Part shown: positions 10,498 through 63,138 of the stretch, in pieces
Layout: every line of letters starts with the position of its first letter
How positions within the stretch are numbered: position 1 is the first letter of the stretch
Source of the DNA: Botryococcus braunii
Lineage: Eukaryota; Chlorophyta; Trebouxiophyceae
DNA length: 64,000 nucleotides
Assembly (NCBI GenBank): GCA_002005505.1
Contig: MVGU01001202.1
Location: 1-64,000 of the forward strand
Direction of reading: 5' to 3'
Position numbers and translations under genes: made by a program
The notes under the pieces: generated by a model
The model's input: only the letters and a program-made list of their open reading frames with translations
What the model was told of the DNA's origin: nothing
Database searches by the model: none

Positions 10498-10775
10498 TTT
10501 TTTTTGTGCTTTTGACTATCAAGATAAATCAGACACCCTGCGCATCAACAGATACTCCCCACCATAAACCCATCTTGAAGAAGGGGGAGATGACACCGCA
10601 CCCAATAAAAAAGAGGGGGGGTCATTTGGTGGCTGGATGTCAAGGGGTTTGTGGCTGACACGGTTTGGAGCACCGAGCCATGGCAACATCTGATGATTTT
10701 CTTGATGCTCATTAGCCTTAAAATGTTACCAGTTAATGAATTGCATAAAAGTTTCATACTTCACATGAGGGGAGG
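10498..10775 (+). other. Family C 3' untranslated region and polypurine tract
   Basis: This stretch between the RNase H stop and the LTR contains purine-rich runs (GAAGAAGGGGGAGATGA near 10575 and AAAAAAGAGGGGGGG near 10607). It ends in ATGAGGGGAGG directly before the LTR start TGTTGG at 10776, the expected place for the plus-strand primer. No gene was seen. Confidence 0.75.
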
Positions 10776-11021
10776 TGTTGGCAAAGACATCTTTTATTGG
10801 ACATATAATGTCTTAGCATAAGTTGCATGTTCGTATGAACCTTAGTTTATGGCCCTACAATAATGAACAGTTATCTTACTTTGCAAAAATTGGGTCTTTG
10901 TTGGCAAAGACATCTTTTATTGGACATATAATGTCTTAGCATAAGTTGCATGTTCGTATGAACCTTAGTTTATGGCCCTACAATAATGAACAGTTATCTT
11001 ACTTTGCAAAAATTGGGTCTT
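10776..11021 (+). repeat. Tandem duplication of the first 123 bp of the family C LTR
   Basis: Two back-to-back copies begin TGTTGGCAAAGACATC at 10776 and 10899. The duplication starts exactly at the LTR terminus. The minus-strand C LTR at 37554-37825 has a similar duplication with a different period (147 bp), so the two appear to have arisen separately. Confidence 0.9.
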
Positions 11022-11160
11022 TCCGTAAAATCCGGAGGTTCTTAGAGATACGGATGTTTTAGGACGACAACGGATGTTTCGGACTCTTGTTGATTCGGTC
11101 GATTTCGAAGTACGAGTCGATCGGCCACGTACAATAAACAATTGGCTGCAAAGTGTACTT

Positions 11161-12338: not shown

Positions 12339-13032
12339 TGTGAAAGGTTATGGGCAATCGGCTTTCCCTGTACAAAGCAGACAGGTCGTCAATAGACGAA
12401 GTTACTCCAGCTACAGTCCGTACGACTGTCTGCTGAGTGCCACACACAACTGTCGGACAAGACTAGCATCTGGTGATGCCCAGCATCTTTCACAACCAGT
12501 TCCGTTACATCATTATCTTGTACACAAGCACCGATCAAGCAATCACTAGATAAGGCTCTAGACGGCTACGTTCAAGTACATGCCTATACTCCCTGAAGTC
12601 ACTGTCCCTTATCTGTTTGAGTGACTACAGGGTACACTAAGCTTGTTCACTCTCACAATAGCAACAATGATACAACACACACTGCCGCACCGTACCTGTA
12701 CAAAGCAGACAGGTCGTCAATAGACGAAGTTACTCCAGCTACAGTCCGTACGACTGTCTGCTGAGTGCCACACACAACTGTCGGACAAGACTAGCATCTG
12801 GTGATGCCCAGCATCTTTCACAACCAGTTGGTATTCACTCCGGTGGGGCAGCCTTAAGAGTTCATCCGACAAACGTGTGATCTAGATAGGATTGTACCTT
12901 ATGTTCGAAAACGTCCAGAATCTGCCGTGTCTCAAGGTACCTTATGTTCTCAATGGACCCATATCCTAATAGTGCACACATGAAGATCACTTAAAGCACA
13001 AGGCATTCAATAATAATGTTCAGAACTCAACA
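12339..13032 (-). repeat. Family B 3' LTR with internal direct repeat
   Basis: The LTR contains a 134-bp direct repeat at 12368-12501 and 12696-12829 separated by 194 bp. On the minus strand the first copy ends TTTGTACAG followed by GTACGG, and the second ends TTTGTACAG followed by GGAAAGCC. Confidence 0.92.
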
Positions 13033-15515: not shown

Positions 15516-18265
15516 TCCATGGTCATCCTCCTCATCCCAGAACGTGGGTGGAGCAGCAGAGGGAATTGCTTGAGGCGTTGCCAGATTCTCACTGCCAAGG
15601 GGGGTGATATCCTAGAATCATAGACAGACCCAGGCTGGACCTTTGATAGACCCACTCTCTCAGCCCCCCTCAAGTGCTCGATAAAGCTGACGTCCCTACT
15701 CTCCTTCCACACTCCATTCCCCACGTACACACGATACGCTTTAGACTGGGGACAATAACCAGTAAACATCCCAGGGATGGTCTTGGGCCCAAAAACAGAC
15801 CTTTGGCCACTGGGAATGTGCACATGGGCTACACAGCCAAACGTGCGCAGCACAGACACATCAGGTTTGACACCAAAGAATAATTCCATGGGGGTCAGGG
15901 ACCTGCCTGAAGTAGGACCCACATTGTAGAGGAGGGTAGCTGTCTCAAGCGCCTCCTTCCAAAGGGAGGGGTCTGCTGCAGCATGGACCAACAGAGTCCT
16001 TGTTCGCTCCTTCAGGGTCCTATTCATCCTCTCCGCCACCCCATTCTGCTGAGGCGTGTAGGGCGCTGAGGACTCCATCTTAGTGCCCTGCTGAGCACAA
16101 AACTCTTTGAATTGCTGGTTCAGGAACTCTGAACCCCTGTCAGTCCTCACACACTTCACAACCGTGCCTCGTTGGGTCTGCCAAAAACGGAGCAGGTCTA
16201 TCACAGCCTTTGGGATGCAATCCTTTGACTTCACAGGCAGGGAGGCAACTTGGTGTGAACTTTCATCCACTACAGTGACCCAATATCGTTCACCTGTGAT
16301 GGCAGGAGGTGATATGGGACCCACAGTATCCACATGGACTCTATCGAGAGGGTGATGTGCAGGCCTGGAAGATACAGGGAAAGGAGGTCTGGAGTGTTTC
16401 CCTTGTATACACGATTCACAGTGCTTGGGGCACTCAGAGCAGGGAGCAAGGGAGATATTGATTCCTGTAACCAGATCTTCCTTGGAGAACCTCTGCATGC
16501 TGCTGGCACCAGGATGACCTAACCTAGCATGCCACAGAGATCTCTCGCTACACACGTGTCCTTTCCTAAGATGAGACGCCTCAGCCATGTGATCAATATG
16601 TCTGCAGCCAACTTGCTGCCCTCTGACAGGACTAACAAACTCCAAAAAAAACAGACCTCGTGCGCAGGTGATATCTCCACACCACCCTTCAGGTCCCTTC
16701 ATGGCTGTGTAACCACCTGCAGTGTCAGTCAGGAAAGATGCTCCATCCTGAATTGCACCAGTGACTGAAATGAGGTTGGTATGCGCAGAAGGAACACACT
16801 GCACATTGTGCAGCCAGAATACTTCGTGCCTTGCATTCACAAGGCATACAGACCCAGATGCAATGATTCCTCCCTTGGCGTCTGAGGTTGCCAAGTGCAG
16901 AGGAAGAGGCTGTCTATGCATAACTGGATTATGGAGCAATGAGAGATCATTGACTATATGCACAGAGGCACCACTATGTATTAACCAAGATGTGCTGCTA
17001 GCTCCATGCGAAGTTGGGGCAAGCACATTGAGAGAGATAAACATCGCCTCACCAGAAGGAGGGGGTGGAGGTGGTAAATGCCACCCCGGAAACGTGTGTT
17101 GACTTGTTGGATAGTTATATGCTGAAGGAGGTCCAGGGCTGGAAGCGGATGAAGGCGGGCCACCCCGGCCAGATCCATGGTCCCACCAGGCTTGAGGAGA
17201 CGACTGTGGGCCTCCCTGGCCCCAGTAAGCTGCAGGCCCAACGCTTGCCGCTTGCATGTTTTGATGCAGAGCCTGCAGCTGCCTGAGCGGTCCGCAGTCA
17301 GTCATGAAGTGGCCCTTTGCCTTGCAGAAGTGGCATGTAAGCTCCTCTCTGGGCCTTCTTGCCCTGCCAGGTCCACGCCCCCTGCCACCAAAAGTAGTTG
17401 CAGAGGGGCCAGCGGGAGGCTGTTCGTTTGCTGGTAGTGCTGCTCCAACTCCCGGTACTGCTCCCACTCCTGGTGCAGCTCCAGCGCTTGATGACGCTCC
17501 AGCTACCCCCCCAGAGGGACCAGCCACTGCTGCAGCTGCCATGGCCTGAGGTGTTCCCTCTGCAGGTGGGTCCTTGTACCCACGGCTGGCTGCGGCGCGC
17601 AGGATTCTTTGAATCAGCTCCAATGGCGGCTTGTCGGTTGCCATAACCTCCAGGGACTCGAGCCTCAGCACAGGAGGGAGGCCCTTCACCATCAGCTCCC
17701 CAACATTGTGGTCCAAGAGGATGAACGCGTTGTTTCTGAGACTTGTAGCCAGATCCATCATTCTGTAGAGGTAGACCTTGAGTGTCTCCCCTGTCTTGAT
17801 GCCCTGCTCCATTTCCTTGTACCACTCAAGGTTGATGTCTTGGTTGCTCCCTCCAGTGTGACTGTTCTTCACCCACGCGATGAAGTCGAACGCTGCTTTG
17901 TGGCATGAGATCTGAGAATGCCAGATGACTGGAACTGACTGGATCAGCCACTGCTTGATGGCTGAGTTCTCCACCGACCCTGGCATTGGCCTCTCCAAAG
18001 CCGCTCTGACCCCCTTGGTGTTTGCGCACGCCTCCAAATTTTCATACCAAAATTCAAAATTGCGCCCTCCATCATCAAGCATGACAGTCATCTTTGGATT
18101 AGAGGTATTGGGGATGTAGGCTGCCTTGTCAATCTCCACCTTTGGTTCTGCAGTGGCTGATTGTGTCCCGGTCATAGACTGCCCCGGAGTGGCCCCACTG
18201 ACTTCTCCAGGTTGAGACATTGCTGTTTCACTGCTACTTTCCTTTTCTTTGCCCCTTTTTGTCAT
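15323..18265 (-). pseudogene. Family B gag, protease and integrase
   Basis: The start is ATG at 18265 (MTKRGKEKESSSE). The order is gag core, a Gly/Ala/Pro-rich hinge with a CCHC knuckle CHFCKAKGHFMTDC, protease, HHCC domain (HARLGHPG ... CSECPKHCESC) and integrase core (VDTVGPISPP, TDRGSEFLN, PQQNGVAERMNRTLKERTRTLL). The protease motif reads LIHSGAS, so the catalytic Asp of the DSG motif is His. The last roughly 95 residues are out-of-frame sequence after an indel near 15600; the true continuation is the RT frame below 15610. Confidence 0.92.
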
Positions 18266-18655: not shown

Positions 18656-19349
18656 TGTGAAAGGTTATGGGCAATCGGCTTTCCCTGTACAAAGCAGACA
18701 GGTCGTCAATAGACGAAGTTACTCCAGCTACAGTCCGTACGACTGTCTGCTGAGTGCCACACACAACTGTCGGACAAGACTAGCATCTGGTGATGCCCAG
18801 CATCTTTCACAACCAGTTCCGTTACATCATTATCTTGTACACAAGCACCGATCAAGCAATCACTAGATAAGGCTCTAGACGGCTACGTTCAAGTACATGC
18901 CTATACTCCCTGAAGTCACTGTCCCTTATCTGTTTGAGTGACTACAGGGTACACTAAGCTTGTTCACTCTCACAATAGCAACAATGATACAACACACACT
19001 GCCGCACCGTACCTGTACAAAGCAGACAGGTCGTCAATAGACGAAGTTACTCCAGCTACAGTCCGTACGACTGTCTGCTGAGTGCCACACACAACTGTCG
19101 GACAAGACTAGCATCTGGTGATGCCCAGCATCTTTCACAACCAGTTGGTATTCACTCCGGTGGGGCAGCCTTAAGAGTTCATCCGACAAACGTGTGATCT
19201 AGATAGGATTGTACCTTATGTTCGAAAACGTCCAGAATCTGCCGTGTCTCAAGGTACCTTATGTTCTCAATGGACCCATATCCTAATAGTGCACACATGA
19301 AGATCACTTAAAGCACAAGGCATTCAATAATAATGTTCAGAACTCAACA
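18656..19349 (-). repeat. Family B 5' LTR
   Basis: This copy matches the 3' LTR, including the internal 134-bp direct repeat. On the minus strand it starts TGTTGAG and ends TTTCACA. Confidence 0.92.
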
Positions 19350-26188: not shown

Positions 26189-26435
26189 ACCAATGAAGGT
26201 GCGTAGAGCCACCCGTCCCCCGGGTATATCAGTCAAGAGGGAGGGACCCACCTAATGGTTTCCTCAGTTGCTTGTTTGAATCCTATCCTTTGGTTTTCTA
26301 TATCACCTAGCCTGTTCCCCCGTTGTTTCACCTGAAATATCCTTGATTGTCCATTCGTGATCTGGAGTCACGTGCTTGTTCGCCATTAGTCAATCCTTTT
26401 GGGGGTTTACTAGCCCTCCCGTGGCAATGGAATTT
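26189..26435 (-). repeat. A1 terminal repeat of the YR element
   Basis: This repeat matches A2 (11303-11549) over its whole 247 bp, from ACCAATGAAGGTGCG to GGAATTT. It forms the end of the element. The base after it, 26436, resumes the family C LTR. Confidence 0.9.
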
Positions 26436-26653
26436 GTTTTTAAGTACGATCGGTTATTTTGCGAATGAGTCGACGAGGCCGATCGACAAGGCGTAGAAGT
26501 ATTTCTGTCCATAAGTGTCGACGGAGCTGATCGACTGGGCCGATCGACGCGGCATATAGCATTCTGGCAAGTAGTATTCTGTCAATAGGAATATGTTTTG
26601 CACGGAGCAACGATTCTAGGTGGATAAAGGGGTAGAGACAGAGTCGTATCCTC

Positions 26654-26903
26654 AGACATTCGATTGCTGTCTCCGGTGCCTCAAGTCGGACCTCTGTATT
26701 TCCGTTTGGCACCGTCCTTTGCCTGCATTAACTCAGCTGTCGCTTGCTATGCAGGTGTGTTTAGTTGTTTCGACCTTTATTGTATAGTTTGATATATGTA
26801 ATAGACATTCGATTGCTGTCTCCGGTGCCTCAAGTCGGACCTCTGTATTTCCGTTTGGCACCGTCCTTTGCCTGCATTAACTCAGCTGTCGCTTGCTATG
26901 CAG
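26654..26903 (+). repeat. Duplicated leader segment in family C LTR
   Basis: Two 101-bp copies, 26654-26754 and 26803-26903, are separated by 48 bp. The first ends GCTATGCAG followed by GTGTGTTTAG, and the second ends GCTATGCAG followed by GAATCCTG. The spacer starts with GT and the second copy begins AGACATT, so a GT...AG pair spans it. The mirror-image C LTR shows the same structure at about 36950-37198. Confidence 0.92.
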
Positions 26904-26951
26904 GAATCCTGAAACTGTTTTTTGATCAAATTGACATCAAATAATCGAATA

Positions 26952-26968
26952 TGGTATCGGCGACACCG
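26952..26968 (+). other. Candidate primer binding site of family C
   Basis: TGGTATCGGCGACACCG lies at the LTR/leader boundary, and the same sequence occurs in C2 (minus strand, ending at 36901). It begins TGG as expected for priming by a tRNA 3' CCA end; I cannot name the tRNA. It also forms half of a hairpin with GGTGTCGATA just downstream. Families A and B use a different primer type. Confidence 0.6.
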
Positions 26969-27302
26969 TTTGGTGTCGATACTGGTCACTGCTCCCGCCA
27001 GCAGCGAGGAGAATAATACGCATACAACTATTTGCAAGCTTCAGCAAGTCTCCAGAAATTCTCGCCCATTTCTCTGCTTTCAACGTAGTTGTTTGTAGTG
27101 TCTTGGGTTGAACGATCGCTTGGAACTTCGGGTTGCTGGATTGTCTCGCTGGAAAGGCACTTGTGTTGATCTAGTAGTGAGAGACAATTGGATGTATTGG
27201 CTGTTGGGATCTGGTGGTTGTGGAATATCTGTTTAAAGTGCAAGCAAGTTTGTTTTCCTTTTAATCTTTCTTTGCCAGTTGCCCGTCAAGGCTTCTGGAA
27301 TA

Positions 27303-29726
27303 ATGTCACAGACAGAATCACAAGATGAAGGATTCAATGTCAGTATTGAGATAGAACCTGCCAGCCCAATGGGCAGGAATGTCTTTAGGAATCCTACCTA
27401 TGATGCAGAAGCAGTCACTGATGACTCTGTGTCACATGTTACAGGGGTCCTAAATGGAATGCAGCAGCAAACTGATGAGGGTCTACAAAGACCACAGGGA
27501 GACTCAGAATGGGAAGCATGGGGATATGATCCACAGACTCAAAACATACCTCTAAACCCTGCTTTCTCAAGACGAGACAACCTTGGTACCTTTGTACCTG
27601 ATCAGCAAGCTGCTGCATCTCCTGCCCCTATGTCTTCTAGAGTGCTAGGCTTTCAAACAAATTTGCCTTCCTCCAGACCTGTCTTAAGCCCTTTGTTTGG
27701 GATACCTAGGACTGCAGTCAGGATCCCAGTGAGGCCTACACACTTACCTGTACCTAGTGCACCACTGGCAGGTGCACCAGTCAATGTTTCCTCATTCATG
27801 ACAAGTGTACCACACACAGGTATTATGCTCCTTTCAGGAAACATAAATCAGGCAAGTACAGCATCAGGTACTACAGTAGTGCATGTTCCCTTGGCAACTG
27901 GTGGCACAATGCCAATCAGTCTTCCAACATCTACAATTTTAAACTCTATTGCACCAACTGTTCAAAGTGTGAGTGCTACACAGGGAACTGCTGCACAGTC
28001 AACGGCACAAGTGTCTGCCCCACCTCCTCCACCTCCACCAGGTGGTGGGCCTCCTTATAGTGGTCCACCAGGAGGTGGTGGCTGGCCTCCGAATCCACCA
28101 GGGGGTTCTTCCTCAGGCCCTCCCTGGTTTAGTGGTGTACCTGGCAGTTGGGGTATGGTGAATTCCAACCCCTATGGTTACAGTGGGTATCCCTTCATGA
28201 AGTTCAATTCTCCTTCTCAAAGGCTTACTCCAAAGTTAGAGCCCCTTAAACTTAATGATGATAACTGGGTCATATGGTCTAGATATGTTCATGCAATGCT
28301 TATAGAGATGGGGGTAGAATACTGTATTCTTCATGACATGAGAGGTTATTTAGATGATTATAAGGCCCAGAGCATTATAACACAGTCTTGTTCAGAGGAG
28401 TATCAAATACAAATCTCTGATCATTTGTCTGCCTACTCTATGTGGGACTACTTGATGGCCTTATTTGTTACAAAAGCAAATGGCAAAATCATATCTCTCC
28501 AGGAAGAGTTCCGCACCTTCAAGATGCATACAAATGAGAAACCTTCCTCATATGTACTAAGGGGTAGAAAAATAGCCAACACAATTAAAAGCTTAGGACA
28601 TGAGTTCAGTGACCTCTCACTCTGCACTATGCTTTTAAATGGACTCCCTGAGGAGTATAATATACATAAGCAGGTTCAACAATCTATTATAGTGTTCAAT
28701 CCTGATGTGAATCTGCTACAACACTCTTTAGAGCTGGCACATATGCAGATAGTGAATAAGAAACTCCAAACCCCACCACCTAAAAATAACACCTTTAACC
28801 AGAAGTCCTCTCCTGGTCAAGGTTACAACCTTAAGTATAAGGCACCAAATTCCCCTACTTCAAATGCTGTAGAGAAAGGTGCTAATCAAGGTGGTGGTGG
28901 GCAGAGTGGTAAAACAGCCTTCCAACAGATAGGGAGGCCTTTACCATTTTGCAGGTACTGCAAGCAGGATGGACACAGCATAGAGACCTGCCCAAAGTTG
29001 GAGGGCAAGAGAGTTAGCTTTGCTTCTCCACCAAAGCAGAGCCACTGCACACAGCTATATACAGTTTGCTCTGAACCCTCTATTTCTGGTTGGCTGATAG
29101 ATTCTGGTTCAACAGATCATATTTCCCCTGACTGTGAGAATATGATGAATTATCTCAAGTATGATAAACCAGATATCCTGATAGTAGCAAATGGTGGTAG
29201 GGAGGAAATCATTGGTGAGGGTACTGTGCAGGTCTTCCTGGAAACAGGAAACTCTCTTTACCTGTACAATGTTAAACATGTACCCTCAGCTAAAAAGCGT
29301 TTATTGTCTGTAGGGAAGGCCTATCATGATGGGTTAGATGTTCATATAAATGGCATTCACTGTCACCTTACAGATTCAAATGGTGATCTTGTGGGCATTG
29401 CTGAACATGTATACCCTTATCAGTGGCTCACAGACCTTTCTATACAAAACAGTGTTCCCCTACCAGTGTCAAATGAAAAGACACAGTGCAACCATACAAA
29501 GGTGGATGTAGATCTGGTAAACATATGGCATCAGCGTTTTGGTCATCTCTCTGCTCAAAACTTGCAAAGGTTGAGCAGGGAGAAAATGGTAGAAGGCTTA
29601 AAACTCCCATCAGGTGACCTATCCAAGTGCATTTGTCATCAAGGTACTTGCGATGCCTGTATGCATGGGAGGCAGACAGCCTCACCATTTAAATCAACCC
29701 AAAATACTTGTTCAAAACCTCTTTAA
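27303..29726 (+). pseudogene. Family C copy 1 gag, protease and pre-integrase domain
   Basis: ATG at 27303 (MSQTESQDEG) is the likely start. A Pro/Gly-rich N-terminal region precedes a Copia gag/UBN2 core (LKLNDDNWVIWSRYVHAM ... SSYVLRGRKIANTIKSLG), a CCHC knuckle CRYCKQDGHSIETC, the protease motif LIDSGSTDHIS and the HHCC domain (HQRFGHLSAQN ... CHQGTCDACMHG). It stops at 29724-29726 where GAA is changed to TAA (CTTTAA here, CTTGAA in C2). The frame continues after the stop, so the break is one nonsense change. Confidence 0.93.
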
Positions 29727-31909
29727 GTCATTCACATGGACCTTATGGGCCCCATAGATCCTGAAACTCCTGAAGGATACAAGTATGCCCTTGTCATTTT
29801 GGATGAGTTCACAGAGTACTCATTTGTTGTTCTGATTAAATCTAAGAGTGATGCAGCAAAAGAAGCTACATACATTCTCACAGCTTTGCAAAACCAGCAA
29901 GACTGTAAAGTACAATTTATCAGAACAGATAATGGTACTGAGTTCAATGGGTTGTTCAAATTCTGTAGGGAGCATGGGGCAGTTCACCAGAAGACTGCCC
30001 CATATGCACATCAGCAGAATGGGAAAATAGAGAGGCTCAACCGTACGCTACAGGAGAAAGCAAGGTGTTTGCTAGCTGCCTCTGGTTTATCATCTGAAAA
30101 CTGGGGTGAAGCTCTTCTTACTTCAAATTATGTTAGAAATATGTCTCCTGTTAAGCACTTGAGCAAAACCCCATTTGAAATGATGCATGGAAAGGCTCCC
30201 AATGTTTCACATCTCAGAATCTTTGGCTCCAAATGTTTTCTCCTTCTTCCTAAGTCAAAGAGGGGAGGGAAATTTGAGCCTGTCAGTGCTGAGGGTATCT
30301 TTGTAGGTTATGATGGCCTTAGCAAGAACTACAAAGTTCTTGTTGATGGAAAGATTGATGTTTACTGCAGAGAATATGTCAAATTCTCTGAACATGCTGT
30401 TCATGATCTGCCTGAAGCACTGGCTGAAGACGATGAGGATGACACTTGCCCATCACTAGTGAGTGTCTCTGATTCTGACTCAGAAGATGGTCATTCTGAT
30501 GATGGTGATACCACTGAGCAAATGCCTGATGTCTCTTTTGCATTAGATATCCCAGAAATTAGCTTAGAGCTAGATCAGGGTACTACACTAGTTAGTGCTG
30601 GAGAGCAAACGGGAAAGGATCAGGACCACTTTGGTCTTGATCCTAGTGGGACTAAGCATGGTAAAAGTGCAGCCACGGGAAGTACGGACGCTTTAGGTCC
30701 AGAACCCTGTTACACAAGTGCTGCAAGTCCGCGCCCACTTAAGGGTGTTCCACAAGCGACTATCCATGAAATGAGTGGGGGGAGTGTCCCAGACCCCCAA
30801 TTAGAACCTGGAGTAGACCAGGATGTGGTCCCTAAGCCTCCAGCAGGTGGTTTCAGCAGTAAGTATCCAGTTAGGAATAGGAAAAATGCAGAAACACATC
30901 CCTGGTGGTCTGGTGCACACACTACAGAAACCCAAACCTCTTTCCTTGGATATGTTCAAGTCCAAAAAGACACAATATATGTTGAACCTGTCACTTACTT
31001 TCAAGCTATCAACTCCCCTGAAGCTGAAAAATGGTTGGATGCCATGAAAGATGAAATGCAGTCTCTCTCTGCTCTTGGCACCTGGACATATGTGGAAGTT
31101 TCAGATGCACAACGCAAAAAGGCCCTCCCTGTCAAATGGGTTTACAAAATAAAGCTCACTGAAACAGGGGAGGTGGATAGATTTAAAGCAAGACTGGTAG
31201 CCAAGGGTTTCAAACAGATATATGGCATAGATTACACTGAAGTCTATGCCCCTGTGTCTAAACATACCACACTAAGGTACCTGTTGGCGAAGGCTGTGAA
31301 CAGGGACATGCATGTGCATCAGATGGATGTCAGCACAGCCTTCCTACATGGGAAATTAGCAGAGGAAATTTATGTGCAGCAACCAGAGGGTTTTCATGTA
31401 GGTGGACCCAATACTGTTTGCAAGCTGCACAAGGCCCTCTATGGGCTCAAGCAGGCGCCCAAGGCTTGGTATGACACTATCAGTCATGTCCTTGTGAGTT
31501 CAGGTTTTACTATCTCAGATGCTGATCCATCCCTATTCATCCTGAACAAGTCAGAGGGGTCTGTAGTCTATCTTCTGCTGTATGTTGATGACATACTATT
31601 ACTATCACAGAGCATGTCTGTCATAACAGAAGTCAAATCACTTATGTCCAGTCATTTCAGCATAAAGGACTTAGGGGAGGCAAAACACTTTCTAGGCATG
31701 CAAATAAAACAAGAGAGAGATGCAAATGGTGCTTTGTTGTCAATTACACTCTCAAATGAGAAATTGATCAGTGACATGCTTGAGAGTTTCGATTTAAAAG
31801 GGGACAAGCCCAAATCTACTCCCCTCGATAGATCAATGAAACTCAAAAAGGGAGAAGGCAAACCACTTCCCCAAAACAACAGATATAGGGAACTGGTTGG
31901 GGGTGTTCT
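29727..31909 (+). pseudogene. Family C copy 1 integrase and RT, truncated at 31909
   Basis: The frame continues from the upstream stop into the integrase core (DLMGPIDPETPEG, RTDNGTEFNG, HQQNGKIERLNRTLQEKARCLL), then the acidic linker and RT with YGLKQAPKAWYD and LLYVDDILLL. It breaks off in the block RELVGGVL, where a family D LTR begins at 31910. RNase H is missing from this copy but present in 8110-10497. Confidence 0.93.
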
Positions 31910-32600
31910 TGAAATATTCTGGGCTTGGCGTATCCTGCATGGTGGCGGCACGGAGGGTGTTAGACGATGTCCTCCTACTTGTGCGTTGTTAAGTAGGCAC
32001 GGACATATACAAGTCAAGGACTGGTTGGCAACTGATTGATAGACACCCGGAGTGCTGCTATAGTTCCAATCAAGTCTTACAATATCTCTCATCTCTCCTA
32101 ATAAGGTGACGCAGTTCAAACACGCCTAACCTGCTCTCACTCAGGTCATGCTCGTTACTTTGTCCGATGAGCTAAACTCAACTCCATATGTCTAGCTTGT
32201 TCTAACAATGTTCATCTGAGTGCTAAATCCAGGAATACAATAAGGGTTAAGTCACCTGCATGGTGGCGGCACGGAGGGTGTTAGACGATGTCCTCCTACT
32301 TGTGCGTTGTTAAGTAGGCACGGACATATACAAGTCAAGGACTGGTTGGCAACTGATTGATAGACACCCGGAGTGCTGCTATAGTTCCAATCAAGTGCCT
32401 TCCCTCTCCGTGCTTGCCCCATATGCCTCCTTTCTACAAACGTGTCTGTAACTTGCGTTATGATAGTCTTCGTTCAAATGCATGTATTGCCTGGCAGAAC
32501 TCAGAGTTTTGCCTCTCCTTCCTAATTGGTATTGTCCTCATCCGGAGACTTGCCATTATTTCTCCTCTGAGGGAAAGGCATAAAATTAATTAACACAACA
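31910..32600 (-). repeat. Family D LTR with internal direct repeat
   Basis: On the minus strand the LTR starts TGTTGTGTTAATTAA (at 32600, next to an AAGGGGAAG polypurine tract) and ends AATATTTCA. It holds a 141-bp direct repeat, 31935-32075 and 32256-32396, spaced by 180 bp. On the minus strand the first copy ends CCATGCAG followed by GTGACT and the second ends CCATGCAG followed by GATACG; the spacer ends TGTAAG before the second copy. It interrupts family C RT. Confidence 0.88.
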
Positions 32601-32618
32601 CTTCCCCTTGCCTTTACC

Positions 32619-34060
32619 TCACAGAAACTTGGCCAGTCCCAGTGAGTTACGATGTCCCAGAAACACTTGTCTAACTAGTGGTTTGGTAAAAATGTCAGCC
32701 ACATTTCTAGCAGATTGAATGTACTTGAATTCAACCTGCCCCTTTGCAATAGCTTCACGGGCAAAGTGACAGCTAATTGCAATATGCTTTGTGTGTTTGG
32801 AGTACACCGGATTCCTCAGGTGGTTTATACACCCTTGGTTGTCACAATGAATCTTCACTATCCACGGTAACACTCCAATTTCCTCCAGGAAACCTCTCAG
32901 CCAATTTGCTTCCTTTACAACAGCACTTGCTGCCATGAATTCAGCCTCCACTGTTGAAGTGGCAACAGCAGATTGCTTTTTACTTCCCCACACCACTGCT
33001 CCTCCAAACACAGTGAGGACAAAGCCAGTGGTAGAGAAGCGATGATCCTGATCACCTCCATAGTCGGCATCCACATAGCCTTCTAGCTCTATCTCCCCCC
33101 CTCCGAGAGTTAGAACCAAATCTCGGGTTCCTTTCAGATACTTCAACACACGGATGGCTTCATTCCAATGTGCTGTGGTGGGAGATATGCGGTAACGAGA
33201 CAATACACCTACTGCTTGAGCTATGTCGGGACGTGTGGTGTTGGCTATATACAGAAGAGACCCTACTAACTCACAGTAACGGTGACCTGGAGGTAGTGGA
33301 CTGCCAGCACCAATGCTGTCGCTCCCATCTCTCGGTGCAGGCCTTTGGGACATTACGAAATCTTTTGTCATGGGAGTATCAGGTCCCACTGACTCAAGAT
33401 CCAAGCCAAATTTCTCTACAAGTGCATCGATTTTAGGGATGCAACTCAGGGTGATCAGCCCTTTATCTCTATCTCTCATCACTTGACATCCCAAGAAATC
33501 CTTTACTTCTCCAAGATCATGGATGGTGAACTCTTTCTTGAGGAGTCCCTTCACTCTCTCGATTTCTGACATACCCTTGGAAACTATCAGAAGATCATCA
33601 ACATAGATCAGCACATAGGACTTTCCTCCATCAGTAGAGCATCTCACATACACTCCCGCATCACTCTTGCACACCTCATACCCCATGACTTCAAGTTTAT
33701 CATTCAGGGTTTTGTGCCAGGCACGTGGAGCCTGCTTCAGGCCATACAACGCCTTTCTCAATCGGCACACAATATGCTTATCCCCATTCTCAAAGCCAGG
33801 AGGTTGCGTTACATATACTTCCTCCTCGAGCTCACCATTCAGAAAGGCGGTCTTAACGTCTACCTGATGAATTTCACAGCCCTCTCTTGCAGCAACGGCC
33901 AGCAGAGCTCTTCTAGCTCCATAGCTACTAGTAGGAGCAAAAACCTCCATCACATCCACTCCAGGGATTTGTCTGCATCCCTGTGCCACTAATCTGGCCT
34001 TGAATCTCACCACATTGCCATGTGCATCCATTTTCACTGAAAATATCCAGTGAACATGAC
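32619..34060 (-). pseudogene. Family D RT and RNase H, fused to family C integrase sequence
   Basis: RT shows KARLVAQGCRQIPGVD, DVKTAFLNGELEEEVY, YGLKQAPRAWHKT and LIYVDDLLIV. RNase H shows VDADYGGDQDHRFSTTG, WGSKKQSAVATSTVEAEF and RNVADIFTKPL. It is closest in motifs to families A and B. At about 34060 the D sequence joins family C integrase (the block MGPIDPETPEGYKYAL) in the same frame. The join deletes D gag, protease and integrase, and the rest of C pol. This is a rearrangement junction, not a working fusion, because C2 carries a stop upstream. Confidence 0.9.
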
Positions 34061-36550
34061 CAAGGGCATACTTGTATCCTTCAGGAGTTTCAGGATCTAT
34101 GGGGCCCATAAGGTCCATGTGAATGACTTCAAGAGGTTTTGAACAAGTATTTTGGGTTTATTTAAATGGTGAGGCTGTCTGCCTCCCATGCATACAGGCA
34201 TCGCAAGTACCTTGATGACCAATGCACTTGGATAGGTCACCTGATGGGAGTTTTAAGCCTTCTACCATTTTCTCCCTGCTCAACCTTTGCAAGTTTTGAG
34301 CAGAGAGATGACCAAAACGCTGATGCCATATGTTTACCAGATCTACATCCACCTTTGTATGGTTGCACTGTGTCTTTTCATTTGACACTGGTAGGGGAAC
34401 ACTGTTTTGTATAGAAAGGTCTGTGAGCCACTGATAAGGGTATACATGTTCAGCAATGCCCACAAGATCACCATTTGAATCTGTAAGGTGACAGTGAATG
34501 CCATTTATATGAACATCTAACCCATCATGATAGGCCTTCCCTACAGACAATAAACGCTTTTTAGCTGAGGGTACATGTTTAACATTGTACAGGTAAAGAG
34601 AGTTTCCTGTTTCCAGGAAGACCTGCACAGTACCCTCACCAATGATTTCCTCCCTACCACCATTTGCTACTATCAGGATATCTGGTTTATCATACTTGAG
34701 ATAATTCATCATATTCTCACAGTCAGGGGAAATATGATCTGTTGAACCAGAATCTATCAGCCAACCAGAAATAGAGGGTTCAGAGCAAACTGTATGTAGC
34801 TGTGTGCAGTGGCTCTGCTTTGGTGGAGAAGCAAAGCTAACTCTCTTGCCCTCCAACTTTGGGCAGGTCTCTATGCTGTGTCCATCCTGCTTGCAGTACC
34901 TGCAAAATGGTAAAGGCCTCCCTATCTGCTGGAAGGCTGTTTTACCACTCTGCCCACCACCACCTTGATTAGCACCTTTCTCTACAGCATTTGAAGTAGG
35001 GGAATTTGGTGCCTTATACTTAAGGTTGTAACCTTGACCAGGAGAGGACTTCTGGTTAAAGGTGTTATTTTTAGGTGGTGGGGTTTGGAGTTTCTTATTC
35101 ACTATCTGCATATGTGCCAGCTCTAAAGAGTGTTGTAGCAGATTCACATCAGGATTGGACACTATAATAGATTGTTGAACCTGCTTGTGTATATTATACT
35201 CCTCAGGGAGTCCATTTAAAAGCATAGTGCAGAGTGAGAGGTCACTGAACTCATGTCCTAAGCTTTTAATTGTGTTGGCTATTTTTCTACCCCTTAGTAC
35301 ATATGAGGAAGGTTTCTCATTTGTATGCATCTTGAAGGTGCGGGACTCTTCCTGGAGAGATATGATTTTGCCATTTGCTTTTGTAACAAATAAGGCCATC
35401 AAGTAGTCCCACATAGAGTAGGCAGACAAATGATCAGAGATTTGTATTTGATACTCCTCTGAACAAGACTGTGTTATAATGCTCTGGGCCTTATAATCAT
35501 CTAAATAACCTCTCATGTCATGAAGAATACAGTATTCTACCCCCATCTCTATAAGCATTGCATGAACATATCTAGACCATATGACCCAGTTATCATCATT
35601 AAGTTTAAGGGGCTCTAACTTTGGAGTAAGCCTTTGAGAAGGAGAATTGAACTTCATGAAGGGATACCCACTGTAACCATAGGGGTTGGAATTCACCATA
35701 CCCCAACTGCCAGGTACACCACTAAACCAGGGAGGGCCTGAGGAAGAACCCCCTGGTGGATTTGGAGGCCAGCCACCACCTCCTGGTGGACCACTATAAG
35801 GAGGCCCACCACCTGGTGGAGGTGGAGGAGGTGGGGCAGACACTTGTGCCGTTGACTGTGCAGCAGTTCCCTGTGTAGCACTCACACTTTGAACAGTTGG
35901 TGCAATAGAGTTTAAAATTGTAGATGTTGGAAGACTGATTGGCATTGTGCCACCAGTTGCCAAGGGAACATGCACTACTGTAGTACCTGATGATGTACTT
36001 GCCTGATTTATGTTTCCTGAAAGGAGCATAATACCTGTGTGTGGTACACTTGTCATGAATGAGGAAACATTGACTGGTGCACCTGCCAGTGGTGCACTAG
36101 GTACAGGTAAGTGTGTAGGCCTCACTGGGATCCTGACTGCAAACCTAGGTATCCCAAACAAAGGGCTTAAGACAGGTCTGGAGGCAGGCAAATTTGTTTG
36201 AAAGCCTAGAATCTAGAAGACATAGGGGCAGGAGATGCAGCAGCTTGCTGAGCAGGTACAAAGGTACCAAGGTTGTCTCGTCTTGAGAAAGCAGGGTTTA
36301 GAGGTATGTTTTGAGTCTGTGGATCATATCCCCATGCTTCCCATTCTGAGTCTCCCTGTGGTCTTTGTAGACCCTCATCAGTTTGCTGCTGCATTCCATT
36401 TAGGACCCCTGTAACATGTGACACAGAATCATCAGTGACTGCTTCTGCATCATAGGTAGGATTCCTAAAGACATTCCTGCCCATTGGGCTGGCAGGTTCT
36501 ATCTCAATACTGACATTGAATCCTTCATCTTGTGATTCTGTCTGTGACAT
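34061..36550 (-). pseudogene. Family C copy 2 gag, protease and pre-integrase domain
   Basis: This minus-strand copy is nearly identical to 27303-29790. The start ATG is at 36550. It has two breaks relative to copy 1: a frame change around 36205-36215 (the early gag frame ends near 36206 and resumes from about 36191), and TCA changed to TAA at 34158-34156, near the end of the HHCC domain. The nonsense change of copy 1 is absent here. The core features (UBN2-like gag, CCHC knuckle, DSGSTDH protease) are intact. It ends at the junction with family D at 34060. Confidence 0.92.
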
Positions 36551-36901
36551 TATTCCAGAAGCCTTGACGGGCAACTGGCAAAGAAAGATTAAAAGGAAAA
36601 CAAACTTGCTTGCACTTTAAACAGATATTCCACAACCACCAGATCCCAACAGCCAATACATCCAATTGTCTCTCACTACTAGATCAACACAAGTGCCTTT
36701 CCAGCGAGACAATCCAGCAACCCGAAGTTCCAAGCGATCGTTCAACCCAAGACACTACAAACAACTACGTTGAAAGCAGAGAAATGGGCGAGAATTTCTG
36801 GAGACTTGCTGAAGCTTGCAAATAGTTGTATGCGTATTATTCTCCTCGCTGCTGGCGGGAGCAGTGACCAGTATCGACACCAAACGGTGTCGCCGATACC
36901 A

Positions 36902-37825
36902 TATTCGATTATTTGATGTCAATTTGATCAAAAACAGTTTCAGGATTCCTGCATAGCAAGCGACAGCTGAGTTAATGCAGGCAAAGGACGGTGCCAAACG
37001 GAAATACAGAGGTCCGACTTGAGGCACCGGAGAGAGCAATCAAATGTCTATTACATATATCAAACTATACAATAAAGCTCGAAACAACTAAACACACCTG
37101 CATAGCAAGCGACAGCTGAGTTAATGCAGGCAAAGGACGGTGCCAAACGGAAATACAGAGGTCCGACTTGAGGCACCGGAGACAGCAATCGAATGTCTGA
37201 GGATACGACTCTGTCTCTACCCCTTTATCCACCTAGAATCGTTGTTCCGTGCAAAACAGATTCCTATTGACAGAATACTACTTGCCAGAATGCTATATGC
37301 CGCGTCGATCGGCCCAGTCGATCAGCTCCGTCGACACTTATGGACAGAAATACTTCTACGCCTTGTCGATCGGCCTCGTCGACTCACTCGCAAAATAACC
37401 GATCGTACTTAAAAACAAGTACACTTTGCAGCCAATTGTTTATTGTACGTGGCCGATCGACTCGTACTTCGAAATCGACCGAATCAACAAGAGTCCGAAA
37501 CATCCGTTGTCGTCCTAAAACATCCGTATCTCTAAGAACCTCCGGATTTTACGGAAAGACCCAATTTTTGCAAAGTAAGATAACTGTTCATTATTGTAGG
37601 GCCATAAACTAAGGTTCATACGAACATGCAACTTATGCTAAGACATTATATGTCCAATAAAAGATGTCTTTGCCAACACTAAGAACCTCCGGATTTTACG
37701 GAAAGACCCAATTTTTGCAAAGTAAGATAACTGTTCATTATTGTAGGGCCATAAACTAAGGTTCATACGAACATGCAACTTATGCTAAGACATTATATGT
37801 CCAATAAAAGATGTCTTTGCCAACA
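36902..37825 (-). repeat. Family C copy 2 5' LTR
   Basis: This minus-strand LTR starts at 37825 (TGTTGGCAAAG) and ends before the primer site at 36901. It begins with a 147-bp tandem duplication (37679-37825 and the copy before it) and holds the duplicated leader segment at about 36950-37050 and 37098-37198. It serves as the empty-site control for the YR insertion: near 37410-37435 the sequence runs uninterrupted across the point where 11160 and 26436 are separated. Confidence 0.88.
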
Positions 37826-39411
37826 GGAAGAAGGGACACAGGTATCCCAGTACACAACTCCTCCCTGCTCAAACGCTCTGTGGCTGTCTTCCCAGGATGC
37901 CCTAACCTCTCATGCCAAAGTTTTCGCAACTTGCAGTTATGTGCAGGTTTGTGTGCAGCATGATGTGCAGACATAGGGTTCACACACACTTGACAAGCCA
38001 CCTGATATTTGGTGGGATATATTCCCCTCAGAACATACAACCCATATCTTTCTACAATGCTGCACTCCCAACCCATGGGTCCCACCAGACTGCTGTAGGT
38101 CCCATTCTCACGTGGAACAAATTGAATACCATCCCTTACCCCAGCTGATACAGACAAGAGATTTGTGCTGGCCTGTGGAACACATTGTACATTATGGAGC
38201 CACAGTAACTGCCCTTCTGCATTCACCAGACACACACTCCCACTAGCAATGATGGAACCATGAGACTCTGATGTAGCCAACTGCAGTTGACGCGGTTCTG
38301 TGTACACCGTGGGGTTCTGCAATACACCAAAGTCATTAACCAGGTGGACAGTAGCCCCAGAGTCCACAAGCCATTCCTCGCACGAGTGCCCAATCCCACC
38401 ACTCTGTAATACATTAAACGTCACACTGGGTAGTGAGATAGGAACGGCTTCTGCGTTTTTAGGACATGGAACATGGGAACTGTTGGATGCAGAGGGAACA
38501 CTTGGCAGTGAATGCTTACTTCTGTCGCCAGCTTGCTCCTCTCCAGTACCCTTTTTCCATTTTGTGCACTCCTTGCTGATGTGTCCACGGCTCCCACACT
38601 CCCAGCACCTGACTTTTCGTGACCTCTTTCTGTCTTGCTCTGACTGGTCTGCCTCAGGGTCCTGGGACTTTGGGAGGACTGCCGCTGCCTTGGGAAGAGG
38701 TCGAGGGAGCTGGTCATTGAAGCCAGCACCATAGGCATGGCTCTGCAGGATTTTTACCACATCTTCTGAGGAGCGTCCGCAGCAATGCCCATAGAGTGCT
38801 CCTTTGAACTGTGCTAGCTCAGTGGGGAGACAATCCACAATAGCATTAGTGACATCTTCGGGGTCAATGGAGTGGGAGTTGTCCAGGAGGTTCTGGAAAA
38901 GTATGAATTTTTTCATGACAAATGTCTCGAACGTCTCCTCCCTGGTCATGTGCTCTGTTTTGAGTGTATGTAGCCACTGGCGGTTAACAGACTTGTTGTG
39001 TCCTCCAGTGAACTTATTGGCTATGTATAACAGGGCATCAAAGGCAGAGGGCTTCATTGTCAACATAGGACTCCACTCCACTGGGACACTGCCAGTGATC
39101 AGCATCATGGCAGCAGCATTTGCTCTCGTGAAAGGAAGGGGTTTCTGAAAGGCCTCCGTGCACTCCTTGTGGATAGCTGCAGTGGTCAGATCATAAAGCC
39201 AGGACTTGAAATTCCACCCATCCTTTAATAAGGGATGGGCTACCTTAACATTTGTTGTTGATGGCTTTGTTGTGTCCTCGTGCAGTAAGGCTGTCAGTAT
39301 CGAAACTACTGGGAGTGTTGTCTTCTCCTGTTCTGTGGATTGACCACCCAGACTTACAGGAGGCTGTTGGTTCAGCTGGTCCACTGGAGATGATTCCGCA
39401 GACTGGGTCAT
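37826..39411 (-). pseudogene. Family A copy 3 gag-protease-integrase N-terminus
   Basis: The frame is open from ATG 39411 through gag, knuckle CWECGSRGHISKEC, protease LVDSGATVHLVNDF and the HERLGHPGKTATERLS part of the HHCC domain, where the C LTR cuts it. The two one-base deletions that break copies 1 and 4 are not present here, which shows the unbroken reading for this family in gag. Confidence 0.9.
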
Positions 39412-39562
39412 TGTGTGAAAGGTTATGGGTTTCTGCAAGTCTGGGTCACTTTGCAGATATGAATCGTTCTGGATATGACGTGCAACAGGTATTCAAGGCG
39501 GACTCCTCGTACTCTGCAACCTTGGCTTCGGCGTAGCTCGATGGGCATGTGGGCCCATAACC

Positions 39563-40938
39563 TGTGAAAGGTTATGGGCAGAGAGAACACCTGCAAGTCC
39601 GCAAAAGGATTTGTCAATGCACTGTAGAGGTTTCGTCAGTCAGACCTCGACACACCCTTTGGCGCGACTGATACAGGTTCGAAAGGAGCGCCTTCCCTTG
39701 CGGCAACCAATAAGCAAGTGCGACTGTCTCAAAGACAAATCAAATATGCAATAGCAAGCTTCAACTTGTAGCAAACAGACAGGACTTCCATTCCGTGGCA
39801 CAGGATTCGGCCAACCAACGAATCGATTACATGGGACAATGTTACTGCTTGCCCTACTGGCACAATCTCATATACGCATGAATTACTTCTCTCATCAGCT
39901 GATTTCATAGCATCGTCTCAGACATGTTCTGTGCCGGACCTGAGTCCGGCACACTCGTTCCCTTGACGACCTAACAGCACAGTTTTGCGACAGTCAACAA
40001 AATATCTAACCAAATAGGAATTATCTCATTAAATCACAACTACATCAATACCTGTAAGTCCGCAAAAGGATTTGTCAATGCACTGTAGAGGTTTCGTCAG
40101 TCAGACCTCGACACACCTATTGCCCCAAGCATTACGATTTAGCCAGAGCAATGAGCAACATTGCAAATGCAGTGGTTATCAAATACATCATGCTATTCTA
40201 TCCTCTGTCAAAGTGACAACGTACCCTTTGGCGCGACTGATACAGGTTCGAAAGGAGCGCCTTCCCTTGCGGGAATCAATAAGCAAGTGCGACTGTCTCA
40301 AAGACAAATCAAATATGCAATAGCAAGCTTCAACTTGTAGCAAACAGACAGGACTTCCATTCCGTGGCACAGGATTCGGCCAACCAACGAATGACGAGTC
40401 TGTCGCCTCCAGCAGTTAAATACCTGACCGTGTTTGGCGCCCAAGGGACTCGATAAAAGTCGAGTCCCTGAAAGCTTCTCACTCCAAAAGGTCCCTAATT
40501 GGTAATCCAATACGGATGATGTTTCCTAGACAAAACACCTAAAGGTCCCATTTTCTGTACCTGATTAAACACACTGATGTGGCCGCCTAAGAATTAGTTT
40601 GACTGACCTCGAATGCGTATTCGAGGTCCCAAAAACAAATTCCACTGAGTGCCACGATGCTGTGTGAGTCAATGCAAAGTTGTCCTAACCTCTTCGTGAA
40701 GTTACGTGAGGAAGACTGAAGTCTGTCAAGGAATTATGTCGCTTCACAGCCAAGTTCCTAGGACTAGCTGGGAGACATATGCAGTAGTTTACACCTAAGG
40801 CACAACAGTGTCGTGCCGTCCAGGGCAGCCTGGCATGCACGACTGTTTTGCCTAGGATGAGTCAGAAGAATACCTCTGAATAAGTCCAACAGTAATGCTC
40901 CCTAAGTAATTACCTGATCTAGGTCATTACCTACAACA
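39563..40938 (-). repeat. Family A copy 3 5' LTR, long form
   Basis: The LTR is 1376 bp long. The downstream leader copy is continuous at 39591-39823 (233 bp). A spacer follows at 39824-40051. The upstream copy is split into 40052-40116 (65 bp) and 40225-40392 (168 bp) by 40117-40224. 65 + 168 equals 233. The spacer contains a GTGCCGGAC...GTCCGGCAC hairpin near 39930. Confidence 0.92.
40117..40224 (-). other. Candidate 108-bp intron in the family A LTR leader
   Basis: On the minus strand the segment runs GTACGTTGTC ... GGGGCAATAG. Its precise removal gives GCCAAAGG-GTGTGTCG, which is exactly the sequence in the second leader copy and in the short LTRs. Equivalent segments are at 7287-7394 and 49895-50002. 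Confidence 0.75.
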
Positions 40939-42919: not shown

Positions 42920-43726
42920 TGTGAAAGGTTATGGGCAGAGAGAACACCTGTAAGTCCGCAAAAGGATTTGTCAATGCACTGTAGAGGTTTCGTCAGTCAG
43001 ACCTCGACACACCCTTTGGCGCGACTGATACAGGTTCGAAAGGAGCGCCTTCCCTTGCGGCAACCAATAAGCAAGTGCGACTGTCTCAAAGACAAATCAA
43101 ATATGCAATAGCAAGCTTCAACTTGTAGCAAACAGACAGGACTTCCATTCCGTGGCACAGGATTCGGCCAACCAACGAATGACGAGTCTGTCGCCTCCAG
43201 CAGTTAAATACCTGACCGTGTTTGGCGCCCAAGGGACTCGATAAAAGTCGAGTCCCTGAAAGCTTCTCACTCCAAAAGGTCCCTAATTGGTAATCCAATA
43301 CGGATGATGTTTCCTAGACAAAATACCTAAAGGTCCCATTTTCTGTACCTGATTAAACACACTGATGTGGCCGCCTAAGAATTAGTTTGACTGACCTCGA
43401 ATACGTATTCGAGGTCCCAAAAACAAATTCCACTGAGTGCCACGATGCTGTGTGAGTCAATGCAAAGTTGTCCTAACCTCTTCGTGAAGTTACGTGAGGA
43501 AGACTGAAGTCTGTCAAGGAATTATGTCGCTTCACAGCCAAGTTCCTAGGACTAGCTGGGAGACATATGCAGTAGTTTACACCTAAGGCACAACAGTGTC
43601 GTGCCGTCCAGGGCAGCCTGGCATGCACGACTGTTTTGCCTAGGATGAGTCAGAAGAATACCTCTGAATAAGTCCAACAGTAATGCTCCCTAAGTAATTA
43701 CCTGATCTAGGTCATTACCTACAACA
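42920..43726 (-). repeat. Family A copy 4 3' LTR, short form
   Basis: The LTR is 807 bp, with a single continuous leader copy and no intron-like segment. It is bounded by the polypurine tract on the right and by plus-strand family A integrase sequence on the left. Confidence 0.92.
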
Positions 43727-49340: not shown

Positions 49341-50716
49341 TGTGAAAGGTTATGGGCAGAGAGAACACCTGTAAGTCCGCAAAAGGATTTGTCAATGCAC
49401 TGTAGAGGTTTCGTCAGTCAGACCTCGACACACCCTTTGGCGCGACTGATACAGGTTCGAAAGGAGCGCCTTCCCTTGCGGCAACCAAAAAGCAAGTGCG
49501 ACTGTCTCAAAGACAAATCAAATATGCAATAGCAAGCTTCAACTTGTAGCAAACAGACAGGACTTCCATTCCGTGGCACAGGATTCGGCCAACCAACGAA
49601 TTGATTACATGGGACAATGTTACTGCTTGCCCTACTGGCACAATCTCATATACGCATAAATTACTTCTCTCATCAGCTGATTTCACAGCATCGTCTCAGA
49701 CATGTTCTGTGCCGGACCTGAGTCCGGCACACTCGTTCCCTTGACGACCTAACAGCACAGTTTTGCGACAGTCAACAAAATATCTAACCAAATAGGAATT
49801 ATCTCATTAAATCACAACTACATCAATACCTGTAAGTCCGCAAAAGGATTTGTCAATGCACTGTAGAGGTTTCGTCAGTCAGACCTCGACACACCTATTG
49901 CCCCAAGCATTACGATTTAGCCAGAGCAATGAGCAACATTGCAAATGCAGTGGTTATCAAATACATCATGCTATTCTATCCTCTGTCAAAGTGACAACGT
50001 ACCCTTTGGCGCGACTGATACAGGTTCGAAAGGAGCGCCTTCCCTTGCGGCAACCAATAAGCAAGTGCGACTGTCTCAAAGACAAATCAAATATGCAATA
50101 GCAAGCTTCAACTTGTAGCAAACAGACAGGACTTCCATTCCGTGGCACAGGATTCGGCCAACCAACGAATGACGAGTCTGTCGCCTCCAGCAGTTAAATA
50201 CCTGACCGTGTTTGGCGCCCAAGGGACTCGATAAAAGTCGAGCCCCTGAAAGCTTCTCACTCCAAAAGGTCCCTAATTGGTAATCCAATACGGATGATGT
50301 TTCCTAGACAAAATACCTAAAGGTCCCATTTTCTGTACCTGATTAAACACACTGATGTGGCCGCCTAAGAATTAGTTTGACTGACCTCGAATACGTATTC
50401 GAGGTCCCAAAAACAAATTCCACTGAGTGCCACGATGCTGTGTGAGTCAATGCAAAGTGGTCCTAACCTCTTCGTGAAGTTACGTGAGGAAGACTGAAGT
50501 CTGTCAAGGAATTATGTCGCTTCACAGCCAAGTTTCTAGGACTAGCTGGGAGACATATGCAGTAGTTTACACCTAAGGCACAACAGTGTCGTGTCGTCCA
50601 GGGCAGCCTGGCATGCACGACTGTTTTGCCTAGGATGAGTCAGAAGAATACCTCTGAATAAGTCCAACAGTAATGCTCCCTAAGTAATTACCTGATCTAG
50701 GTCATTACCTACAACA
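49341..50716 (-). repeat. Family A copy 4 5' LTR, long form
   Basis: It has the same architecture as copy 3: continuous leader 49369-49601, spacer 49602-49829, and a split leader at 49830-49894 plus 50003-50170 with the 108-bp segment 49895-50002 between. Confidence 0.92.
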
Positions 50717-51000: not shown

Positions 51001-51576
51001 TTATACCACAAGTCCTTGCGCCCTTGTAATTTAAATATACTAGAAGTGGACTAACTCAATTATCTGGGCAACTTATTCGGTTTAACAGCAACCTAATCCT
51101 TCAGTTTCAACAGCTTCGCCGCCGCCGCCCCCTTCCCTCAACCAGCAAATCCTGATCTTTAGCATACAAACGTCCAACAAATCGGTCAATCAGCATACAA
51201 AGGCACAAACGGCCAACAAATCGGTCAATTAGCAACAAGTCTCCACCAGATACACGTTTATACTCAAACACATATCCAATAGAAATGGACTTACCTCTTC
51301 CCTTGTGCTTTAATGTAGACTTTGACAGGACCCTTGTCACGGTTACGAAACTCAAAGCACTCATTCTTGAACTGATTAAGAGCAGCGGAGTCCTATTGCC
51401 AAACAAATGGTGCACGATTCATGGCGAATCGTCGACATAGCGAATATTACTTTTGTAGAGAGTGATGGAAAGAATTATTGACGGAAAACGCTATTTTCAC
51501 CTCATTGAGACAATCAATGGTTCCAAAAGCTGTCGCTCGCACGTGTCCAAGGGTGTTTGTTGGTCCGCGGTCGATG
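51001..51576. other. No gene recognised
   Basis: The stretch contains a local duplication of about 35 bp (CCAACAAATCGGTCAAT occurs twice near 51170-51235) and a GCC-rich patch near 51118. I see no conserved domain or RNA gene. Confidence 0.5.
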
Positions 51577-51682
51577 TGCGTGAGTGCGTGCGTGCGTGTG
51601 TGTGTGTGCGTGAGTGCGTGAGTGCCTGCGTGAGTGCCTGCGTGCGTGTGTGCTCGTGCGTGTGTGTGTGTGTGTGCGTGTG

Positions 51683-51714
<32 letters not shown>

Positions 51715-51741
51715 TGCGTGCGTGTGCGTGCGTGCGTGTTT

Positions 51742-51836
<95 letters not shown>
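51577..51836. repeat. (TG)n/(TGCG)n microsatellite
   Basis: A long run of TG mixed with CGTG and GAGTGCG units is followed by a pure TG tract of about 90 bp. All open frames across it are Cys/Val or His/Thr repeats and are not genes. Confidence 0.97.
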
Positions 51837-52059
51837 TGTGGCGCAAGATTTAACTTTTTCAGTTGCTATTCCGATGCGGATGAGAATTGGGCACAGCAAT
51901 CGCAATGTCAGTCGGTGTCGGGAGCGCCCTGTAAACGTCTAATATAATAGTGGCTATCGCAAACTTGGATCCACTATACATATCCGGGGGCATGTGCACC
52001 ACTACAAAGCAAGGAAGTGTCCAATTTCGTCTTTCTTTATAACTTATGAAGCTTTGCCA

Positions 52060-56678: not shown

Positions 56679-56751
<73 letters not shown>

Positions 56752-63065: not shown

Positions 63066-63138
<73 letters not shown>

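Follow-up and report, generated by a model that had tools for sequence, protein, structure and literature searches.

Copia long terminal repeats of the green alga Botryococcus braunii carry a duplicated R region around a putative, regenerated leader intron

Spliced RNAs of long terminal repeat (LTR) elements have been described for Ogre, EVADE, BARE1 and Cer1, where splicing, in the cases described, yields subgenomic RNAs or alters the coding part (excerpt of PMC12786077). The foamy virus LTR carries its major splice donor in the repeated (R) region, upstream of the polyadenylation (poly(A)) signal (excerpt of PMC3694450), and genomic copies of spliced element RNA are known in the form of the L1 SpIREs, which derive from a non-LTR element (excerpt of PMC5860796). 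Here, we describe Copia elements of Botryococcus braunii (Chlorophyta, Trebouxiophyceae) that share features with these systems, found in the first 64,000 nucleotides (nt) of contig MVGU01001202.1 (assembly GCA_002005505.1; hereafter the window) and sampled across a genome of 176 Mb in 989 contigs. Their LTRs contain two copies of R, the first followed by a donor-like GT and the second preceded by a TGTAA motif. This arrangement very probably reflects a leader intron that is spliced out of the element RNA and regenerated by transfer onto a stub of the second R copy.

Read in the sense of each element, the LTRs consist of U3, a first copy of R (R1) ending in CAG, a spacer opening with GT, a second copy (R2) ending in CAG, U5 and the primer-binding site (PBS). 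The initial annotation of the window had reported a duplicated LTR leader of this kind in four Copia families, A to D, and every one of its coordinates was reproduced. In element A2 (reverse strand), comparison of the repeats places R1, the putative exon 1, at 40052–40392 (341 nt), the spacer at 39824–40051, with TGTAA at 39827–39831 just before R2, and R2, of 233 nt, at 39591–39823. Family B is represented by both LTRs of one reverse-strand element with the 5-base-pair (bp) target-site duplication (TSD) AGTGG. Its 5′ LTR of 694 nt (18656–19349) comprises R1 at 19013–19146, a spacer at 18819–19012 with TGTAA at 18822–18826, and R2 at 18685–18818, and is followed by the PBS; its 3′ LTR (12339–13032) comprises R1 at 12696–12829, a spacer at 12502–12695 with TGTAA at 12505–12509, and R2 at 12368–12501. 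The 518-nt 5′ LTR of family C lies on the forward strand (26434–26951), with R1 at 26654–26754, a spacer at 26755–26802 containing TGTAA at 26797–26801, R2 at 26803–26903, and the PBS TGGTATCGGCG after the LTR. A second, inverted family C 5′ LTR (36902–37418, reverse strand, low end approximate) has R1 at 37098–37198 and R2 at 36949–37049. Family D, on the reverse strand, is a 3′ LTR, with flanking DNA after U5 where the other families have the primer site; it spans 31910–32600, its high end being approximate and set from a 691-nt relative (L009), and contains R1 at 32256–32396, a spacer at 32076–32255 with TGTAA at 32077–32081, and R2 at 31935–32075. The long 5′ LTRs of two further family A elements, A1 and A3, together with the second LTRs of families B and C, extend the set in the window.

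As the initial annotation had noted, the CAG of copy 1 is followed by GTATTG in A, GTACGG in B, GTGTGT in C and GTGACT in D, and copy 2 ends in the same CAG. The sequences after copy 2 are GTGTTC, GGAAAG, GAATCC and GATACG, respectively, all beginning with G. R1 and R2 are identical in the B, C and D pairs of the window. The further statement that the repeats are unrelated between families does not hold throughout: R1 of D clusters with those of L004 and L009. The R1 sequences of 38 LTRs (the 36 described below, D and L065) form 11 clusters at 80% identity.

Boundaries were compared in 36 distinct LTRs from the window and from fetched loci that have an internal repeat adjoining a primer-site motif; they span two primer-site types and include family C loci fetched by similarity. 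Copy 1 ends in CAG followed by GT in all 36, and copy 2 in CAG followed by G in all 36. The CAG itself is partly a matter of construction, because the count was anchored on the last CAG of copy 2. In an unanchored check, the first difference between the two copies falls 1 nt past the CAG in 33 of the 36 and 2 nt past it in three, which are family A-like (GTA versus GTG). The initial annotation had named repeat ends at random positions away from CAG as a pattern that would refute it, and none of the 36 shows this pattern. Upstream of R1, TATA-like words from a loose word list occur in 30 of the 36 LTRs.

Within one LTR, R1 and R2 are 98–100% identical (16 unique records), while R1 sequences of different families reach at most about 81–83%, with an alignment background of approximately 65% and pairs listed from 62% upwards. 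Over the 38 LTRs, the mean identity between copies is 99.5% and the minimum 94.6% (L065, the most diverged pair), family A entering these figures with a block of 66–73 nt. Changes can also be common to both copies. Among 20 distinct R1/R2 pairs of family B (22 before recount), R1 and R2 are altered alike at four of six variable sites, and two of the seven variable exon columns of family A are common to R1 and R2 throughout, as is a 2-nt shift in length.

The TGTAA motif ends 0–3 nt before R2 in all 33 LTRs with an undivided repeat; for points along these LTRs in general, the share with a TGTAA ending between −3 and 6 nt is 1.4%. In family A, the three long LTRs of the window carry TGTAATC shortly before R2. 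None of 12 distinct R1 records has TGTAA within R; the motif occurs once or twice in the spacer, and the U3 piece (200–350 nt) is without it in 11. In the chlorophytes studied, with the exception of Pyramimonas, the poly(A) signal UGUAA lies approximately 15–20 nt upstream of the cleavage site (excerpt of PMC1868727), and this distance places the predicted cleavage within R2.

Family A separates the two copies by one clean segment. In A2, a 108-nt stretch opening GTACGT and closing CAATAG, a putative extra intron, is found at 40117–40224 in copy 1 only, and R2 equals R1 minus this segment. The long 5′ LTR of A1 (6730–8109, reverse strand) has R1 at 7221–7563 with the segment at 7287–7394, TGTAA at 6996–7000 and R2 at 6758–6992; that of A3, also on the reverse strand, has R1 at 49830–50170 with the segment at 49895–50002, TGTAA at 49605–49609 and R2 at 49369–49601. 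Two short reverse-strand LTRs complete the set: that of A1 (307–1116) consists of U3, a single R (336–569) and U5, without the 108-nt segment, the spacer or a second R, and that of A3 (42920–43726) has a single R at 42948–43180, likewise without the segment. In the window, the GT–AG segment is thus present in R1 of three of three long A LTRs, in R2 of none of the three and in the single R of neither short LTR. Exact patterns find 134 family A LTRs in the genome with the segment in the R adjoining U3 and 25 without it; its absence from R2 was checked in three of the 134. Judging from the first 100 of these 134 places, family A LTRs are concentrated in a small number of contigs, perhaps as centromere-like nested clusters; the A-rich contigs are C38, C62, C119, C127, C245, C249, C308, C334, C340 and C379, and several contigs rich in family A also contain family C.

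These features can be accommodated by a single scheme of replication. The LTR would be organised as U3, R1, a spacer running from GT to TGTAA, R2 and U5, with the transcript beginning on the opening base of R1. R1 would act as exon 1 of the 5′ leader, and the stretch from GT through the spacer to the CAG of R2 would be an intron, so that splicing would connect R1 directly with U5 and the PBS. This intron would also contain the poly(A) signal, just before R2, and because of that position the RNA of the 3′ LTR would be cleaved slightly into R2 and end with a short R2 stub. Minus-strand strong-stop DNA copied from the spliced leader would pair with the stub at the 3′ end of the RNA, since R2 and R1 begin with the same bases, and would be extended through the spacer, R1 and U3. 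The resulting DNA would again read R1, spacer, R2, in which R2 is a fresh copy of spliced R1, and copy 2 would be renewed in each cycle. Because a usable 3′ splice site forms the end of exon 1, the intron could be lost from the leader and yet be rebuilt in every new copy. With somewhat less confidence than we attach to the intron and its regeneration, splicing is likely to be an obligate replication step in a large group of Copia elements, in which first-strand transfer would copy exon 1 into the intron that follows it, at the 3′ end of that intron.

The initial annotation had proposed that copy 1 is R with its splice donor and copy 2 an R from a spliced leader, moved at first-strand transfer. 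As far as DNA can speak for RNA, this interpretation is supported, because TGTAA ends 0–3 nt before copy 2, because the copies are near-identical while the families differ, and because copy 2 of A is without the intron-like 108-nt segment, all three being additions to the initial annotation, and also because the same layout recurs in many families and with two types of primer site.

The extent of the architecture was assessed from both of these types. The first primer-site motif, CAGGTTATGGGC, has 1590 copies in the genome against 3 of its reversed control, and the second, TGGTATCGGCGA, has 1572 against 7. For the first motif, 40 of the first 45 places listed were examined, some of them in one cluster or with identical LTRs. 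A repeat was found at 34 of the 40, a single R joined CAG|U5 at five (L006, L025, L030, L034 and L038) and no recognisable LTR at one (L021). At the first 20 places listed for the second motif, with 460 nt examined at each, a repeat was found at five. No repeat was seen within 460 nt at the other 15, one of which is mostly N, and a long, A-like R could escape this length. Eight of these 15 group with Gypsy-type elements, forming three groups by LTR-end sequence as judged by eye, and seven are unclassified. The Gypsy-type domains in the fetched loci are a gag match next to L093 that scores below the Pfam cut-off, gag with protease downstream of L094, and RVT_1 and protease 1.8 kb downstream of L096. 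The R duplication is not common to every LTR element of this genome. Four RVT_2 matches of 150 listed, chosen for having no first-motif site nearby, all have the repeat and fall into two R clusters, and a genome-wide search with the family C LTR, which scores best candidates only, gave 44 matches, 40 of them covering both copies. Most of the sampled Copia copies carry the presumed RNA start twice in each end repeat. A search of viral collections for relatives with this architecture gave no match, and four loci in bacterial-titled records from genome collections contain internal repeats but, at a glance, no R pair of this kind.

Insertions with TSDs show both forms of the LTR. Two R copies are present at both ends in L001, L005, L009, L010, L011 and L017, and a single R, joined exactly CAG|U5, at both ends in L025 (TSD CATAT), L030 (AAGTC) and L034 (ATATC). 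L038/L044 also has a single R at both ends, and is 5′-truncated and without a TSD. No TGTAA was found in the single-R LTRs of L006 (5′), L025, L030 and L034; of the two short A LTRs, one has none and that of A3 has one, in U3. The single-R LTRs might be genomic copies of spliced element RNA.

The open reading frames (ORFs) that families B and C have in the window show the Copia order of protease, integrase and reverse transcriptase (RVT_2). In family B, a reverse-strand ORF at 15323–18265 contains gag_pre-integrs, rve and SH3-like domains, with Pol_BBD just under the cut-off, and the RVT_2 ORF (13053–15515, reverse strand) lies downstream of integrase, as in Copia. TSDs of 5 bp flank L001, L005, L006, L009, L010, L011, L017, L025, L030, L034 and the B element. 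The first-motif PBS of A1, A2, A3 and B pairs over 14–15 nt with the interior of a tRNA-Met gene, at positions 26/27–40. This recalls Drosophila copia, in which integrase likewise precedes RVT_2 and the PBS is complementary to the interior of tRNA-iMet, with half-tRNA priming; such a PBS is not obligatory for all Copia elements. Family C and L065–L068 have TGGTATCGGCG or a variant as PBS, which does not match the tRNA-Met interior. Judged by eye, TGGTATCGGCGA would be complementary to the 3′ terminus of the tRNA-Met with CCA added, provided that the gene is one base shorter at this end than called by ARAGORN. A tRNA-Met gene at 1474–1547 of L098 matches the first primer-site type inside and perhaps the second at its 3′ end.

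The repeat structure, its boundaries, the placement of TGTAA, the near-identity of the copies, A copy 2 without its segment and the 11 R families are properties of the DNA. Several points weigh against the proposed splicing and transfer. The start of transcription, splicing, polyadenylation and the transfer to the R2 stub are inferred from DNA, and the count of TATA-like words has no control. The two LTRs do not differ in donor, poly(A) signal or acceptor, and the scheme itself gives no reason for splicing at the 5′ end and polyadenylation at the 3′ end; cap-proximal donor recognition is one possible reason. An unspliced leader could also replicate by ordinary transfer, with R1, spacer and stub together acting as R. 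In family B, just two elements supply the joint changes, L039 with three sites and L005 with one, present in both of its LTRs; R1 alone is altered at two of the six variable sites, and one site has a mixed pair in L010. Of the seven variable columns of family A, four are altered in one copy only and one more is mixed. L006 also counts against the scheme: between its GATAC TSDs, the 5′ LTR has one R and the 3′ LTR two, although the LTRs of a fresh insertion are expected to match. The single-R LTRs could stem from direct-repeat recombination or from template switching by reverse transcriptase without splicing. Lastly, nine long-long and six long-short pairs were counted in family A among 100 of the 134 long places listed; these pairs are unreadable, because no 5-bp TSD was found in A1 or A3, nor in any of the five elements, out of ten more of family A, whose 5′ start could be read, and because a PBS follows two short A LTRs. 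Pairing long with short LTRs to tell which end is short was accordingly dropped.

The most serious alternative, to which we give a low probability, is a tandem duplication homogenised by gene conversion at the DNA level or by template switching, through triplication and contraction, with no part played by splicing and with CAG|GT as a chance end of the duplication. Close direct repeats do recombine, L006 resembles such an event, and the joint changes of family B rest on two elements. Such a history gives no account of CAG|GT and CAG|G breaks across different R families or of TGTAA at R2; it would also have to keep R2 of family A free of the 108-nt segment though other variants are common to R1 and R2, and no triplication was seen among the first-motif sites examined.

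Slightly less probable again is a leader intron that is real and spliced, with copy 2 kept by selection for the 3′ end of the intron and homogenised in some other way, and with no role in strand transfer. It is true that the end of exon 1 must serve both as exon end and as acceptor, and that early polyadenylation can be blocked when a donor precedes the poly(A) signal, as in foamy virus (excerpt of PMC3694450), but selection on splice signals alone would not hold 101–147 nt near-identical between the copies. That the two copies instead serve as a pair of start sites or as regulatory units in tandem, with splice-like ends that are incidental, we regard as very improbable: LTRs often contain tandem regulatory repeats, but the two copies are preceded by different signals, TATA-like words before R1 (in 30 of 36, on the loose list and without a control) and TGTAA before R2 (in 33 of 33).

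Other repeats lie in the same region. Inverted copies of a region with tandem units of 123 and 147 nt occupy window positions 10775–11160 and 37417–37825, and mutually similar, TG/AC-rich simple repeats occur at 51575–51840, 56680–56750 and 63068–63137. In the host genome, matches to the RuBisCO small chain come in two pieces, each on one contig; with the TGTAA of the elements, they suggest a green alga, and a diatom host, considered first, was rejected on these grounds.

To our knowledge, no Copia LTR has been described in which R is duplicated around an intron; nor do we know of a second R copy that acts as acceptor and transfer target in the foamy virus LTR, or of a regenerated intron in the L1 SpIREs. 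In the open-licence literature searched, including the available excerpts of PMC2806351, PMC3694450, PMC6413133, PMC5542766 and PMC12786077, no LTR with R duplicated around an intron was found. If true, the intron regeneration proposed here would allow an LTR element to retain an intron even though it passes through an RNA phase, and would tie splicing to replication. It would also bear on how identical LTRs escape early polyadenylation at the 5′ end, and it yields exact predictions for any transcriptome of the organism. Compared with Ogre, EVADE, BARE1 and Cer1, the algal Copia elements would differ in the place and role of splicing, their putative intron lying within the LTR itself and on the path of replication.

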